A DNA stretch of 64,000 bases from Methanocella arvoryzae MRE50 (GTDB lineage Archaea > Halobacteriota > Methanocellia > Methanocellales > Methanocellaceae), in assembly GCF_000063445.1 (NCBI RefSeq), contig NC_009464.1, forward strand, positions 2,170,001-2,234,000, in the 5' to 3' direction. This document shows, piece after piece, positions 28,381-58,258 of this stretch. The position numbers and the translations under genes are program-made. The notes under the pieces were generated by a model that did not search any database, had not been told where the DNA came from, and saw nothing but the letters and a program-made list of their open reading frames with translations. Positions within the stretch are counted from its first letter, which is position 1. Each line of letters opens with the position of its first letter.

Positions 28381-28678
28381 TTACCACAGAGGTTCACAGA
28401 GTACTGGTTTTACCACAGAGGCTCACAGAGATTTGGTTTACCACAGAGGCACAGAGGTGCACAGAGATTTATTTGGTATAGGGGGCGTGCCCATATCTTT
28501 CTGTTAACATATAGGTCGGTCTACGTGTGTCAGGTCTATTGAGTTGATACTACAGAAATATTTCTGCACTATCCGTCTTTAAAATAGAAAATTGCTCTGT
28601 GCGTCTCTGTGTTTCTCTGTGCCTCTGTGGTAAGCTGTTCTCTGTGCGTCTCTGTGTTTCTCTGTGCCTCTGTGGTAA
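28381..28678. repeat. Intergenic inverted-repeat element, CACAGAGG family, copy 2
   Basis: The ends TTACCACAGAGG (28381-28392) and CCTCTGTGGTAA (28667-28678) are perfect inverted repeats. The left arm has several ACCACAGAGG-N-CACAGAG units, the right arm CTCTGTGCGTCTCTGTGTTT units. The unique core at about 28481-28595 is recognisably related to the core of the element at 48658 (shared strings such as TATCTTTCT, ACGTG, and AAAATAGAAAATT). It lies between two convergent genes. Confidence 0.88.
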
Positions 28679-48540: not shown

Positions 48541-48657
48541 ATTTAAAGAATAAGGGAGGAACTAACCAGTTCCTCTTACCTACTTTTTTGCATATTCATT
48601 ACACATCGCACAGAGTGGCTGCCACTATAGAGACGCAGAGGCTCACATAGTAGTTGT

Positions 48658-48938
48658 TTTACCACAGAGGCACAGAGACGCACAGAGGTTCACAGAGTAC
48701 TGGTTACCACAGAGGCACAGAGATCCACAGAGACTCACAGAGGCTTACTTAATAATCAGAGAGCGCGTCTGTATCTTTCTTTTAACTTATGGATCGGCAT
48801 ACGTGCGTCAAGTCTATAGAGTGATATTACCGAAAAACTTCGACTCTCTCCATCATCAAAATAGAAAATTACTCTGGCATCTCTGTGTTTCTCTGTGCCT
48901 CTGTGGTTAACCGTTTCTCTGTGAACCTCTGTGGTAAA
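48658..48938. repeat. Intergenic inverted-repeat element, CACAGAGG family, copy 3
   Basis: The ends TTTACCACAGAGG (48658-48670) and CCTCTGTGGTAAA (48926-48938) are perfect inverted repeats. The left arm carries three or four ACCACAGAGGCACAGAG units, the right arm their complements. The core at about 48763-48875 is a diverged homologue of the core in the copy at 28381. The element lies between mvhA and the convergent EamA transporter gene. Confidence 0.9.
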
Positions 48939-52687: not shown

Positions 52688-52771
52688 AAGCTGAGATCAG
52701 CCTTCATCCGATATGAATATTTATATTCGAATACATGGTGACTGGCAGTCTTTTCATACGGGGACCAAACG

Positions 52772-52789
52772 ACTTATATATTTATAAGT
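52772..52789 (+). promoter_or_regulatory. Promoter with palindromic TATA region of the LOG-like gene
   Basis: ACTTATA (52772-52778) and TATAAGT (52783-52789) flank TATT. It lies 21-38 bp upstream of ATG 52810. This fits a leaderless start there and argues against the upstream ATG at 52735. Confidence 0.5.
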
Positions 52790-52809
52790 TAACGATTTTT
52801 ACGGCAGCT

Positions 52810-53451
52810 ATGTCTTTGGGGATGGAAGGGACAGGCTGGGTTACATCATACCATGCTCAGCCTGGACTATGTTCAAACAATGGTAGTATAGAATGTCTGA
52901 TCAATCGAAAGCCGCTCATCGGAATCATCGGTGACTCGCGGGCAGTATACGGCTCGGATAACTATGAGCTCGCCTACTGGCTGGGGTACGCGCTGACTTC
53001 GAACGGGTACAGGATCATAACCGGCGGATCAGGTGGAGTTGCAGAAGCGGCAGCGAGGGGAGCATGCATATCAGCATGGTACTCGAGCGACGACGTCATC
53101 AACGTACTGCCGGGACAGCACCCGTGCGACCCGGCGCACTTCCATGAGGCCTGCATGTCTTTCACCGACAGCATGTCGGGAGACGTGGTCGTCCCTCACA
53201 GCGATGCCATCATCGCCATCGGCGGAGGCTCCGGCACCCTGACCCAGCTCGCCCACGCGTGGGCACTGGACAAACTGATCATCGCCTACCGGGTGAAAGG
53301 CTGGAGTGGCAGGGTTGCCGACCACCCGATGGGCATCCGGCACCACAGGCCCGACGTAGCGGACGATCAGGTCTACGGAGTCGAATCGGAGAACGAGGTG
53401 CTGGAGAAGCTGGAGCTACTAAAGTATTACCGGTCGCCGTCGACGGCATGA
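52810..53451 (+). CDS. LOG/TIGR00725-like Rossmann-fold protein
   Basis: 213 aa from ATG 52810 (MSLGMEGTGWVTS); an in-frame ATG 25 codons earlier lies upstream of the promoter palindrome. The first 40 residues are unlike the family. The Rossmann core starts at LIGIIGDSRAVYGSDNY, then RIITGGSGGVAEAAARGA. The phosphate-binding IIAIGGGSGTLTQLAHAWALDK follows near residue 150. In LOG cytokinin-type phosphoribohydrolases the second motif is GGxGTxxE; here Gln replaces the Glu, so a hydrolase activity is doubtful. Function unknown. Confidence 0.75.
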   Translation: MSLGMEGTGWVTSYHAQPGLCSNNGSIECLINRKPLIGIIGDSRAVYGSDNYELAYWLGYALTSNGYRIITGGSGGVAEAAARGACISAWYSSDDVINVLPGQHPCDPAHFHEACMSFTDSMSGDVVVPHSDAIIAIGGGSGTLTQLAHAWALDKLIIAYRVKGWSGRVADHPMGIRHHRPDVADDQVYGVESENEVLEKLELLKYYRSPSTA

Positions 53452-53527: not shown

Positions 53528-54385
53528 ATGGTACGGATAGCGCTGCCCAATAAAGGAAGAGTTTACGAGCCCATCATGAGCCTGTTCGAAGGTGCGGGCC
53601 TGCACGTGATCGAGCACTCCCAGAGGAGCCTGTTCGCGAAAACGGTGGACGAGAACATCACCATGCTGTTCGCCCGGTCCCGGGACATCCCGGGGTACGT
53701 GGAGAACGGGGCAGCAGACCTCGGGATCACCGGCGAGGACTTCATCCAGGAGGCCGGCGCGGACGTGGAAGTCCTGCTCGACCTGGGCATGGGCAAAGCC
53801 GAACTCGTGCTGGCAGTGCCCGAAGCATCCGCCATAGAGCGGCCGGAACAGCTGGCCGGCAAGAAGGTCGCCACCGAGTTCCCGGAGATCACGAAGAAAT
53901 ACTTCGCCACCAGAGGCATATCCGTACACGTGGTAGAGGTTTGCGGCGCCACCGAGATCACGCCCCACATAGGCGTGGCCGACGCCATCGTCGACCTGAC
54001 CTCCACCGGCACCTCGCTGTCCATGAACCGTCTCAAGATCATCGGCAGAGTGCTGCGCACATCCCAGCGGCTCATCGCCAGCAAGGCCAGCCTCGCCCAG
54101 GACGGCAGGAAGATCAGCGAGATCACACTCGCCCTGCAGAGCGTGATCGAAGCCCGGGGGAAACGCTACCTGATGATGAACGTGCCTGAGGGGGCGCTTG
54201 AAGCCGTCAAGAAGAAGCTGCCCGGGCTCGCCGGCCCGACAGTGCTGAAGGTCGAGGCCGACTCGCCGATGTGCGCCGTCCACGCGGTGGTGCCGGAGAA
54301 TGAGATCTACAGGGTGATCAACGACCTCAAGGAAGTCGGGGCCCGGGATATCCTGATCGTGCCCATCGAGCGGATCGTCAGGTAA
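53528..54385 (+). CDS. hisG: ATP phosphoribosyltransferase HisG (long form)
   Basis: 285 aa. HisG joins ATP and PRPP to start histidine synthesis. The N-terminal catalytic part begins with VRIALPNKGRVYEPIMSLFEGAG. GAADLGITGEDFI and the PRPP-binding DAIVDLTSTGTSLSMN (near residue 155) follow. The last about 75 residues form the ACT-like regulatory domain (VLKVEADSPMCAVHAVVPENE), so this is the hexameric, histidine-inhibited long form that needs no HisZ. No other his gene is adjacent. Confidence 0.97.
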   Translation: MVRIALPNKGRVYEPIMSLFEGAGLHVIEHSQRSLFAKTVDENITMLFARSRDIPGYVENGAADLGITGEDFIQEAGADVEVLLDLGMGKAELVLAVPEASAIERPEQLAGKKVATEFPEITKKYFATRGISVHVVEVCGATEITPHIGVADAIVDLTSTGTSLSMNRLKIIGRVLRTSQRLIASKASLAQDGRKISEITLALQSVIEARGKRYLMMNVPEGALEAVKKKLPGLAGPTVLKVEADSPMCAVHAVVPENEIYRVINDLKEVGARDILIVPIERIVR

Positions 54386-54477
54386 GCCTGACCTTGAAAG
54401 GCCCGATGGCAATCCATATGCTGACACGGCAGCCACGCCAGAGACGCAAAAGTTTATGGGCTGTAATGCCCTGATAA

Positions 54478-55191
54478 ATGATACACGCTAAGAAGAGGAT
54501 TCCTGTGACAGCTATAGATTGGAGAAAATGGAGACACGTGACCAAGCTGGACCCGGACAAGAAGATCACCAAGCAGGACGTGGCGGCGATCATGGATACC
54601 GACACTGACGCCATCATGATCTCGGGCACCCAGAACATCACGAAGGAAAACGTTGGCAATCTGGTCACCATGCTGGCCGAGTACAGGAAACCGAAAGTCC
54701 TTGAGCCCTCGGTTTCCGCCGTCCTCCGGGACGACGTGGACTTCATCTTCATCCCGTCGGTATTTAACACTAAAAGCTCCAAATGGCTCGTCGGCATCCA
54801 GAAAGACTTCCTGAGGGACCACCCGGTTTCCAGCTGGGACAACATCGTCCCGGAAGCCTACCTCGTTCTCAACCCCCTCTCCGCCGTCGCAATCGTCACC
54901 CGGGCGCAGACCGGCATCAGCCCGCAAGACGCAGCAGCCTACGGCCGGCTGGCAGACAGGCTCTTCAAGTTCCCTATCATGTACCTCGAGTACAGCGGCA
55001 CCTATGGCAATCCCGAGCTGGTCAGGGCAGTCCGGGAAAAGCTGACCAACACCGTACTGTACTACGGCGGTGGCATCGACTCGAGGGAGAAGGCGGAAAC
55101 CATGGCTAAGTACGCCCACACCATCGTCGTCGGCAACGCAATCTACAGGAAAGGCGGCATAGAAAAACTCAAAGAGACCATCGTCAAATAA
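54478..55191 (+). CDS. Geranylgeranylglyceryl phosphate synthase, copy 1
   Basis: 237 aa. GGGP synthase joins geranylgeranyl diphosphate to sn-glycerol-1-phosphate, the first committed step of archaeal ether-lipid synthesis. The TIM-barrel motifs are present: HVTKLDPDKKI (metal/diphosphate), MISGTQNITKENV, FIFIPSVFNT, YLEYSGTYGNPE and YYGGGIDSREKAE. Start ATG 54478; compared with copy 2 it has about eight extra N-terminal residues. It is 18 bp upstream of copy 2. Two long stretches are identical in DNA with copy 2 (54868-54923 and 55026-55100). It is one of two intact copies. Confidence 0.92.
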   Translation: MIHAKKRIPVTAIDWRKWRHVTKLDPDKKITKQDVAAIMDTDTDAIMISGTQNITKENVGNLVTMLAEYRKPKVLEPSVSAVLRDDVDFIFIPSVFNTKSSKWLVGIQKDFLRDHPVSSWDNIVPEAYLVLNPLSAVAIVTRAQTGISPQDAAAYGRLADRLFKFPIMYLEYSGTYGNPELVRAVREKLTNTVLYYGGGIDSREKAETMAKYAHTIVVGNAIYRKGGIEKLKETIVK

Positions 55192-55209
55192 CACCGGGGA
55201 CTATCGATT

Positions 55210-55896
55210 ATGGCACCAATTGACTGGAAGAAATGGAGACACGTAACAAAGCTGGACCCGGACAAGAAGATCACCAGGCAGGACATCGCCGCTATCGTAG
55301 ACTCGGGCACAGACGCAGTCATGATCTCGGGCACCCAGAACATCACGAAGGAAAACGTCGGCAACATGATCGACATGCTGGCCGAATACAGCATCCCCAA
55401 GGTCCTGGAGCCATCGGTCTCTGCGATCATCCGGAACGACGTGGACTTCATCTTCGTCCCCTCCATCTTCAACACCAAATACTCAAAATTCGCCGTCGGC
55501 TACCACAAGGACTTCGTCAAGAACTACCCTGACGAGGTACTCGACAAGGTCATCCCCGAGGCTTACATCGTCCTCAACCCCCTCTCCGCCGTCGCAATCG
55601 TCACCCGGGCGCAGACCGGCATCAGCCCCAGAGAAGCGGCAGCCTACGCGGAGCTCGCAGACCGGTTCTTCCGGTTCCCCGTCGTCTACATCGAGTACAG
55701 CGGCACCTACGGCAACCCTGAGCTGGTCAAGGCAGTCCGGGAAAAGCTGACCAACACCGTACTGTACTACGGCGGTGGCATCGACTCGAGGGAGAAGGCG
55801 GAAACTATGGCTAAGTATGCCAACACTATCGTCGTCGGCAACGCTGTTTACAAGAAGGGCGGCATCGAGAAGCTCAAAGAAACGATAGTGAAATAA
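55210..55896 (+). CDS. Geranylgeranylglyceryl phosphate synthase, copy 2
   Basis: 228 aa, the tandem paralogue of the gene before it, with the same catalytic motifs: KLDPDKKITRQD, MISGTQNITKENV, FIFVPSIFNTKYS, YIEYSGTYGNPE, YYGGGIDSREKAE. Differences cluster in the middle (residues about 90-115, YSKFAVGYHKDFVKNYPDEVLD against SSKWLVGIQKDFLRDHPVSSWD). This could alter the prenyl-binding region or the oligomer contacts. All motif residues are intact, so it is probably active. A DGGGP-synthase-like gene lies about 0.9 kb away. Confidence 0.92.
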   Translation: MAPIDWKKWRHVTKLDPDKKITRQDIAAIVDSGTDAVMISGTQNITKENVGNMIDMLAEYSIPKVLEPSVSAIIRNDVDFIFVPSIFNTKYSKFAVGYHKDFVKNYPDEVLDKVIPEAYIVLNPLSAVAIVTRAQTGISPREAAAYAELADRFFRFPVVYIEYSGTYGNPELVKAVREKLTNTVLYYGGGIDSREKAETMAKYANTIVVGNAVYKKGGIEKLKETIVK

Positions 55897-55929: not shown

Positions 55930-56592
55930 TTATTTATATAGCATAAGCCTGTACGCCAGGCTTGTATGCTTCAGCTCCCACCTCTTGAAGCGCGACTCCT
56001 TCGCCACCTTCAGCACCTCTGTCTCCGTATAGAACGGCTCTATGTAAGCGTGCAAACGCAGAGCCCAGGCCCTGAAGAAGCCATACTTCTTTTTTAACTG
56101 TCCGAACACTTCCGGATCGACGTTTCGGGGAATGTCGTAGATCCATGCCTCGCCGCCCTCCCGGAGAACCCTGTATATGTCGTCCAGCGCCTGATCCGGC
56201 TTCTTCCAGTGGTGGAACGACATCGTGCTGATCACCAGGTCGAACTCCCTATCCCCGAAGGGTAGCGTATCCGCACTCCCCTGCCGAAACTCTACGTTGT
56301 GGAGGCCTTTCTTAGCTGCGGTAGCAGAGGCGATCTTCACCATGTCCCCGGACAGATCCAGGCCCACCACATACAGCCTCGGATTCCTGGCCGCCAGCAT
56401 TATTGGCAGCCTCCCCGGCCCCGAGCCGACATCAAGCACCCGCCCGGCCTTCATGTGCTCGTCCACCTGGCTGGCCACCGCACTGTAGAAATCCTCGAAA
56501 ATCTTAGAGCTACTTATAGCTAAATATACTCTGGAAAACGGAAAAGGTATTGCCTCGGGCTCAATGCGGGCAAGAAAGCTGCGCAGCGACAT
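55930..56592 (-). CDS. Class I SAM-dependent methyltransferase
   Basis: 220 aa. Motif I VLDVGSGPGRLPIMLAA near residue 53, acidic motif II VVGLDLSGDMVKIASATA, the post-motif LPFGDREFDLVISTMSFHHW and the LREGGEAWIYDI strand match a Methyltransf_11-type enzyme. The C-terminal extension (YGFFRAWALRLHAYIEPFY) is aromatic. The substrate is unknown. It converges on the GGGP synthase pair and is upstream of the UbiA-type gene only by position. Confidence 0.86.
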   Translation of the reverse strand: MSLRSFLARIEPEAIPFPFSRVYLAISSSKIFEDFYSAVASQVDEHMKAGRVLDVGSGPGRLPIMLAARNPRLYVVGLDLSGDMVKIASATAAKKGLHNVEFRQGSADTLPFGDREFDLVISTMSFHHWKKPDQALDDIYRVLREGGEAWIYDIPRNVDPEVFGQLKKKYGFFRAWALRLHAYIEPFYTETEVLKVAKESRFKRWELKHTSLAYRLMLYK

Positions 56593-56694
56593 TATAGCCA
56601 GAGTTTCTCATAGCGAAAATATAGCCGTTTGCCGAACTTTTCCGCCATCGCACCTGCCATAATCTGTTCGGCCCCGGGAGGCCTCGGTTTTATA

Positions 56695-56772
56695 TCGCAA
56701 AGGCGCAAAGGCACAGAGACGCAAAGATACATCAGAACAATTTAGCGTCTTTGCGTCCTTGAGCCTTTGCGA
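56695..56772. repeat. Intergenic inverted-repeat element, CGCAAAGG variant
   Basis: TCGCAAAGGC (56695-56704) and GCCTTTGCGA (56763-56772) are perfect inverted repeats. Between them are CGCAAAGGCACAGAGAC and its complement-like GCGTCTTTGCGTCCTTG. It appears to be a short relative of the CACAGAGG family. Confidence 0.8.
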
Positions 56773-56806
56773 ACTAAGAACAAGGCGGCCTGGCGCCGCA
56801 AATCTA

Positions 56807-57691
56807 TCAGAGCAGCGCCGGCACCAGGAACGCAATCAGCGCCAGTCCCATCGCTATCATGGTGGTCTTCCTGGCCTTGCTGATGGTCTTCCGCTCGTGG
56901 CTGGCTATCAGGCTGTAAGTCACGTACAGCAGGATCAGGATTGAGATGCCTGCGAAGGCTGCGTACAGGTAGTTCTGATAGTAAGTCGGGTGTTCCGGCA
57001 CGAGGTTGACGAGGAACGGTATCGGGGCGAGCAGCATGGCGATAACATACAGGGCGACCGCAGTATACTTGGCGGTCTTTTCCCCGAACACCCGGGCGAT
57101 CGTCTTCACGTCCCTGAGCGCGTCGCCTTCCACGTCCATGATGCCCTTCATGATCTCCCTTCCCAGCCCGAGGAAGAATGCCATGGCCGCGAGCAGGAGC
57201 AGGATCGGAGAGCTGTTGAACAGCATGCTGCTGAACAGGAACGGAGCCGCCATCGTGAAAGCGATGTATATGTTCCCGACGATGCCGTACTCCTTTAGCT
57301 TATAGTCGTACAGGATGCCGAACACGATCATTGCGACGACTACTGCAAAGGCGCCCCAGTTGCCTATGAAGTATGCGGCAACAATGCTTACGATAAAACT
57401 GGCTATGGTCAATCCAAGTGCTTCGTTCTTCGAGACCTCCCCTCTGACGATGGGCCGGTCGGTGCGGTTATTCTTCCTGTCGACCTCCACGTCGAAGTAA
57501 TCGTTGAGCGCGAAAGCCCCCATTTCCGCCGCAGTGGCCGCTATGGCACCGGCGAGTGCCACTGTCGGGTCAGGTAATCCTCTGTAGGCGATGATCAGGC
57601 TGACAACGAAACTGACCGCGTAGATCAGCCCGTGCTCCAGGCGGGTCAAATCCCAGTAGGCTTTGAGCTTTCTCGACAGCGAGGCCGGCAT
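56807..57691 (-). CDS. UbiA prenyltransferase, probable digeranylgeranylglyceryl phosphate synthase
   Basis: 294 aa from ATG 57691 (MPASLSRKLKAYWDLTRLEHG). UbiA family with about nine helices and both Asp-rich motifs: NDYFDVEVDRKNNRTDRP near residue 65 and DVEGDALRDVKT near residue 185. In archaea the likely role is DGGGP synthase, which adds the second geranylgeranyl chain to GGGP. Its closeness to the two GGGP synthase genes supports this. Another UbiA function (e.g. heme or quinone prenylation) is less likely here. A TATA-like TTTTATAC near 57720 lies in the divergent gap with tsr3. Confidence 0.88.
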   Translation of the reverse strand: MPASLSRKLKAYWDLTRLEHGLIYAVSFVVSLIIAYRGLPDPTVALAGAIAATAAEMGAFALNDYFDVEVDRKNNRTDRPIVRGEVSKNEALGLTIASFIVSIVAAYFIGNWGAFAVVVAMIVFGILYDYKLKEYGIVGNIYIAFTMAAPFLFSSMLFNSSPILLLLAAMAFFLGLGREIMKGIMDVEGDALRDVKTIARVFGEKTAKYTAVALYVIAMLLAPIPFLVNLVPEHPTYYQNYLYAAFAGISILILLYVTYSLIASHERKTISKARKTTMIAMGLALIAFLVPALL

Positions 57692-57730
57692 ACAAACGTT
57701 AATGCATGATGATGGTATAAAACGGTTGCT

Positions 57731-58258
57731 ATGAGCCACGGTAACAGTGTGCCGCTTTACGTCTACCACGCCCGGCAGGACGACCCCAAAAAGTGCTCCG
57801 CCCGGCGCATGAAGCAGTTCGGCCTGGTCAGGATGTACGAGACCGCCGAACGCCTTCCGGCAGGCGCCATCCTCATGGACCCCAACGCGGGCAAAGCGCT
57901 CTCACCCGCGGACCGCGACCTCTCCCGGAAAGGGATCGTAGTACTTGACTGCACCTGGGAAGAAGTGGAACGTGTCTTCCCGCTGCTCAAAAGCAAGCAC
58001 ATGCAAAGCCGGGCTCTACCATATCTCCTGGCCTCCAACCCCGTCAACTACGGCCGCCCCTTCATGCTCAACTCAGCAGAAGCCTTCGTCGCCGCGCTCT
58101 ACATCCTGGGGTTCAAAGACCAGGCCAGGGAAGTCGCCTCTAAGTTCAAGTGGGGAGAAACATTCTTAATTTTAAACCACGAGCCGCTGGAAGCTTACGC
58201 CGAAGCTACCGATTCTGCCGATATTATACGAGTGCAGCAGGACTTCATGCCTGACTGA
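57731..58258 (+). CDS. tsr3: Tsr3-type rRNA aminocarboxypropyltransferase (DUF367)
   Basis: 175 aa. Tsr3 transfers the aminocarboxypropyl group of SAM to a small-subunit rRNA pseudouridine derivative. It is a SPOUT-like enzyme. The DUF367 pattern is clear: [21 protein letters not shown] (basic N-terminal region), [30 protein letters not shown] and [21 protein letters not shown] with SSAEA-like follow-on. The gene is divergent from the UbiA gene (39 bp apart) and stands alone downstream. Confidence 0.93.

Follow-up and report, generated by a model that had tools for sequence, protein, structure and literature searches.

GGGPS, the enzyme that forms the first bond of archaeal membrane lipids, commits carbon to these membranes. 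In group I enzymes, the chain length of the lipids is accepted to be set by the limiter residue. The W99 residue of the A. fulgidus enzyme was reported to restrict the donor to C20, and PcrB, the heptaprenylglyceryl phosphate synthase of group Ib, has Ala at the limiter and uses a C35 donor (PMC9385802). Altered-limiter GGGPS paralogues are already known in haloarchaea, where organisms making C20-C25 lipids carry a second paralogue with a changed limiter residue; these pairs are referred to as IaH1 and IaH2 (Peterhoff 2014, via the review PMC9385802). Gene conversion between tandem paralogues is also known in methanogens, in which mtrA-1 and mtrA-2 were homogenised by this process, and a case has also been proposed for Methanocella arvoryzae (PMC4632066). 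The main text of a catalogue of long-lived concerted evolution across prokaryotes mentions neither geranylgeranyl enzymes nor Methanocella (PMC6053082).

The window, i.e., the whole stretch of 64,000 nucleotides of M. arvoryzae MRE50 DNA that was analysed, includes two GGGPS genes in tandem, designated here copies A and B. The genes of this region and a candidate promoter element are the following.

54478 to 55191, plus strand: GGGPS copy A, 237 amino acids, group I (A. fulgidus type)
55210 to 55896, plus strand: GGGPS copy B, 228 amino acids, group I (A. fulgidus type)
53528 to 54385, plus strand: hisG, upstream neighbour of the syntenic GGGPS, kept in four of four Methanocellales genomes
55930 to 56592, minus strand: class I SAM methyltransferase, conserved neighbour downstream of GGGPS
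56807 to 57769, minus strand: UbiA prenyltransferase, likely a DGGGP synthase (second ether bond), with conserved synteny and a match to 6m31
54450 to 54459, plus strand: candidate BoxA/TATA-like element AAGTTTATGG, some 25 bp 5′ of the ATG of copy A, read from the sequence

The original prediction was that two full GGGPS copies lie 18 bp apart, and this was confirmed: both open reading frames are intact and located on the same (plus) strand, with an 18-bp spacer between them. Both proteins match TIGR04146, the NCBIfam equivalog for the A. fulgidus-type GGGPS, over its full length and above its cut-off of 320 bits (A, 344.8 bits; B, 366.7 bits). Both also match the Pfam PcrB family, PF01884, and a search of the whole single-contig genome (3,179,916 bp) found exactly two members of this family, A and B. 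The amino acids involved in catalysis and G1P binding, D13, Y124, Y165, E167, S169, G170, G194, G195 and N216 (A. fulgidus numbering, roles taken from PMC9385802), are all kept in the two copies. The A. fulgidus GGGPS itself (PDB 2f6u/2f6x, group Ia, TIGR04146) is matched over the full length with the same catalytic residues, but it has W99 at the limiter where A and B have F, and the genome G101, whose gene is identical to that of A. fulgidus, has one copy. PcrB belongs to the same fold family and its limiter is likewise smaller, but that residue is Ala rather than F; A and B fall below the cut-off of the heptaprenylglyceryl phosphate synthase equivalog (223-224 of 260 bits). The element AAGTTTATGG would be in keeping with leaderless transcription of A and B, which are probably co-transcribed.

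A DGGGP-synthase-like gene had been proposed to lie nearby, and this holds in part. The best PDB match of the UbiA gene is the solved DGGGPS structure 6m31 (3e-24). However, the protein passes the NCBIfam model PRK12884, titled merely 'prenyltransferase', and falls below the DGGGPS equivalog cut-offs (137.9 of 296 for PRK12882 and 120.8 of 353 for PRK12883).

Most archaea were expected to have one GGGPS, and this held at the phylum level: of the 194 genomes of the phylum in which a hit was obtained, 185 have one strong match to PF01884 and nine have two, which are adjacent only in the M. arvoryzae genome that contains the window. In three genomes the GGGPS match includes an internal TGA (G010:C6:16608-17270, L186; G018:C83:1862-2524, L211; G102:C157:1612-2274, L124), where the match possibly overruns the true stop near the C-terminus. 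The class-level comparison comprised four Methanocellales genomes: the window genome, its nearest named relative Methanocella sp. PtaU1.Bin125 (Bin125), G001 and G003. The tandem pair is not a trait of the genus. Bin125 and G003 have one GGGPS each (the count in Bin125 comes from a MAG of 220 contigs), and G001 (2,957,635 bp) has two unlinked genes, one syntenic and the other roughly half a megabase distant, assuming a circular chromosome. The gene order hisG, GGGPS, methyltransferase, UbiA, Tsr3-like is kept in the four genomes, with extra inserted genes in Bin125. The 2-kb gap in Bin125 holds a metallo-beta-lactamase-fold gene and a methyltransferase, and no remnant of a second GGGPS was found in it.

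The limiter residue was located by alignment to 2f6u and the A. fulgidus sequence, the letters of which were verified against the 2f6u alignment; the A. fulgidus gene has zero branch length to the G101 gene in the tree.

54763 to 54810, plus strand: limiter region, helix alpha-4a, of copy A (NTKSSKWLVGIQKDFL), with its counterpart in B 705 bp downstream

Both A and B have F at the position of A. fulgidus W99, which discards the idea that they are one W-type and one F-type enzyme. The Bin125 gene and the unlinked copy of G001 are also of the F type, and the syntenic copy of G001 and the G003 gene are of the W type. Outside Methanocellales, the main survey has W at the limiter in 114 of 114 group I loci from archaea. 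A second, partly overlapping set has W in every group I sequence, and its 12 exceptions align with G and resemble group II. The W limiter is typical of C20 enzymes and not required for group I membership; IaH2 also departs from it. In the tree, A, B, the Bin125 gene and the far copy of G001 form an F clade (support 100/99), and the syntenic copy of G001 and the G003 gene form a W clade (97/83).

The haloarchaeal IaH1/IaH2 pairs likewise consist of two paralogues, one with an altered limiter. Among the haloarchaea-like genomes with two copies, the first copies have W; the limiter is F in four of the second copies and L in a fifth, and a sixth, very divergent second copy aligns with Y. Unlike these genomes, the window genome has no W-type partner. 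Haloarchaea-like pairs are also unlinked and very divergent (100-124 versus 175-191 bits), and their origin is independent of the Methanocella F. The Methanocella F clade groups with the Methanocellales W-type genes (99/96), far from the haloarchaea-like second copies L212-L216; since the two F groups are apart in the tree, the change from W to F arose independently in each, and acquisition of the F type from a haloarchaeal IaH2 is ruled out. In the literature searched, this repeated shift of the limiter to F was not found stated. A specialist may be surprised by an independent W-to-F change in Methanocella that is fixed in genomes which seem to have lost the W form. Within L212-L216, the genus g25 carries F at the limiter, versus the leucine given for IaH2 in the review (PMC9385802). 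The limiter of the IaH2 subgroup, judged from these genes, may be more varied than that review summarises.

Two stretches of identical DNA, of 56 and 75 bp at an offset of 705, had been noticed in A and B, and the patchy identity had been interpreted as gene conversion. Their exact positions were verified.

54868 to 54923, plus strand: putative conversion tract 1 of copy A, 56 bp identical to B
55573 to 55628, plus strand: putative conversion tract 1 of copy B, counterpart of 54868 to 54923
55026 to 55100, plus strand: putative conversion tract 2 of copy A, 75 bp identical to B
55731 to 55805, plus strand: putative conversion tract 2 of copy B, counterpart of 55026 to 55100

Overall, A and B share 81.7% nucleotide and 78% amino acid identity, and the next longest identical runs are 40, 28 and 20 bp. 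In 20,000 permutations of synonymous codon choices within each amino acid, a 75-bp run was seen in 0.12% and a second run, of 56 bp, never occurred. Both tracts (codons 131-149 and 183-208) reached P<1e-4 in a GENECONV-like permutation run over 337 polymorphic columns of six Methanocellales genes. The one further pair with this value was the other within-genome pair, that of G001, and the best between-genome pair had P 0.04. Divergence along the two genes is not uniform, with an A-B dS (NG86) of 0.06 inside the tracts versus 0.84 elsewhere. In topology tests A and B were best joined in all segments, and a phylogenetic conflict between tract and non-tract regions is not visible for this pair. 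Taken together, the shuffles, the permutation and the comparison with Bin125 described below agree with the earlier interpretation, and gene conversion is, from the sequences, the well-supported best reading of the identical tracts.

An explanation without conversion, in which the stretches are held identical by selection on codons or RNA, finds some support in that the tracts span conserved catalytic segments (LNPLSAVAIVTRAQTG; YYGGGIDSREKAE). Nonetheless, it is extremely improbable: in the tract codons, 10-26 nt separate the Bin125, G001 and G003 genes from A and B, with 3-11 synonymous codon changes among the differences, and the permutation value of P<1e-4 also argues against it. As the Bin125 gene has 10-16 nt differences from each of A and B in these codons, the A/B identity is not due to constraint at the level of nucleotides or RNA structure. 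The pair resembles mtrA-1/mtrA-2 in that tandem methanogen duplicates have a converted conserved domain and a divergent remainder. However, MtrA is a different enzyme and its whole domain was homogenised, whereas A and B have two short tracts (56 and 75 bp).

The GGGPS pair of G001 also includes a tract (L088:8891-9043 and L089:8485-8637), in which the first 51 codons are near-identical and are followed by abrupt divergence. Over codons 12-62, a stretch that begins at the ATG, the two copies differ at 3 of 153 nt, and the middle is about 35% different. For the N segment, topology tests preferred a tree joining the two G001 copies to the normal tree (AU p 0.001), and for the middle they rejected such a joining (AU p 0.03), a clear conflict between segments. 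On these data, the 5′ tract of G001 is evidently a conversion of its own, between loci far apart on the chromosome. The tracts of A/B and G001 indicate that GGGPS paralogues were converted independently in two lineages of Methanocellales, in one of them between unlinked genes. Selection steering conversion away from the limiter helix is not claimed, since recombination requires similar DNA and the three tracts may miss the helix by chance.

The two copies are sisters in the tree (100/98, repeated), and also when the tracts are left out, in which case alternative pairings of A or B with Bin125 have AU p below 0.006. Nevertheless, it is uncertain when the duplication took place. The A-B dS of 0.84 outside the tracts is near that to Bin125 (0.94-1.03), and Q96, R179, H210 and R220 (A. 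fulgidus numbering) tie A to Bin125 and not to B, which together make a duplication before the Bin125 split possible. In that possible alternative, B would have been lost in Bin125 and A and B would have been homogenised over more of their length; the corresponding topology was not rejected for the middle segment alone (AU p 0.26). The stricter form, in which A is the Bin125 orthologue from a pre-split duplication, is disfavoured outside the tracts (AU p 0.005), although not in that middle segment.

We consider it likely that A and B both encode functional group I GGGPS enzymes and are F-type tandem duplicates under purifying selection that later underwent conversion in two tracts. The F and W types would have arisen by an older duplication inside Methanocellales. 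The W type seems to have disappeared from the window lineage and from Bin125, both of which would depend on the F type, and G001 would have kept both types. The F-type gene would then have duplicated in tandem in the M. arvoryzae lineage at or soon after the Bin125 split, and both copies would have stayed intact under purifying selection. Conversion would later have overwritten two short segments of the conserved core around the catalytic residues, and the remainder, including the chain-pocket helix, would have gone on diverging. Each enzyme would join a prenyl diphosphate to glycerol-1-phosphate; mainly C20 donors are predicted because the genome has no other GGGPS. Since M. arvoryzae is without a W-type enzyme, its F types must be able to make normal ether lipids.

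Neither copy is decaying, as indicated by the intact reading frames, the equal rates (Tajima test, chi2 0.4-0.8 for amino acids and 0.00-0.01 for nucleotides, neither copy faster) and an A-B dN/dS outside the tracts of 0.16/0.84, about 0.2 and well below 1. Pseudogenisation of one copy is thus ruled out. With F in both, the chain-length residue does not set A and B apart. The differences include otherwise near-invariant sites (S29T, G30D, H96Q and I125L in A; L50M and W91F in B) and, in helix alpha-4a beside the limiter, positions 91, 92, 95, 96 and 103. The Q of copy A at the otherwise invariant H96 is common to Bin125, and B has F where W91 is 97% conserved. PcrB Y104 is named as a limiter in PMC9385802, and position 103 is our own placing of it. 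Differences between the pockets of A and B near the limiter are possible, as judged from these substitutions. Intact motifs with divergent middle regions had been taken to suggest forms tuned to different prenyl chains. Both features were seen, but almost every pair compared, orthologues among them, varies most in the middle; divergence there is thus in part ordinary and is by itself no sign of specialisation. On the present alignments, the idea of two chain lengths would suit the contrast of F with W better than that of A with B.

Several explanations of why two copies are kept were weighed. Plain redundancy or dosage, with near-equivalent copies kept for enzyme supply and largely neutral divergence, is tenable even if the balance leans against it. 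The copies are adjacent, on the same strand, evolve at equal rates and have the same catalytic residues and limiter, and their most divergent stretch is the variable stretch of the family; yet it is unusual that a duplicate of exactly the same function is kept so long (dS about 0.84), and the substitutions at near-invariant sites also disagree with equivalence. It is rather unlikely that the F type, with the smaller F in place of the pocket W, takes longer donors such as C25 alongside or instead of C20, and that A and B divide the labour through their five differences in alpha-4a. What points that way is the role of W99 in limiting A. fulgidus to C20, the use of C35 by PcrB with its Ala, and the altered-limiter paralogue of C20-C25 haloarchaea (PMC9385802). 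In addition, the four Methanocella F-type genes alone depart from the W of the main survey, and F (four cases) or L (one) is found independently in the second copies of haloarchaea-like genomes, next to first copies with W. However, the F types must make all ether lipids in the window genome and Bin125, which are without the W type, and A and B have the same limiter residue. No additional prenyl diphosphate synthase goes with the F type: F-only, W-only and F+W genomes alike have three, in each of the four genomes, and their motifs agree in the two of three types compared. We know of no C25 lipids in Methanocella, and a literature search for core lipids of this genus found no usable paper.

A relaxed-limiter (W to F) GGGPS that arose independently of haloarchaea may even have replaced the C20-limited enzyme by a tandem pair, with diverging pockets and a core kept uniform by conversion, giving ether lipids of variable chain length (e.g., C25-containing); this broader proposal, drawn from gene comparisons, is improbable in our estimation. 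It is very unlikely that A and B assemble into a hetero-oligomer, with conversion keeping their shared surfaces compatible. GGGPS enzymes are dimers or hexamers (PMC9385802) and adjacency of the genes would favour co-assembly, but Bin125 and G003 manage with one copy, which indicates that a homo-oligomer is enough in close relatives. The Methanocella genomes form a natural series of W only (G003), W and F (G001), F only (Bin125) and tandem F and F (M. arvoryzae). This series could serve as a direct testing ground for chain-length control and for conversion that keeps the cores of duplicates alike while their pockets diverge.

Two other features of the window were noted. The called N-terminus of the SLOG cluster 4 (LDcluster4) protein encoded at 52735-53451 is maybe overlong, as the family match begins at residue 60. 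The motif AGAGACGCAAAG and its near copies occur 6 times in the window versus 0.31 expected, at 28597-28653, 48629-48685, 54440-54451 and 56669-56798, and two of these places hold pairs 45 bp apart. The site at 56669-56798 sits within an imperfect inverted repeat with arms of 24-57 nt. The motif resembles a dispersed intergenic element, and one copy is located directly before the putative promoter of GGGPS copy A.
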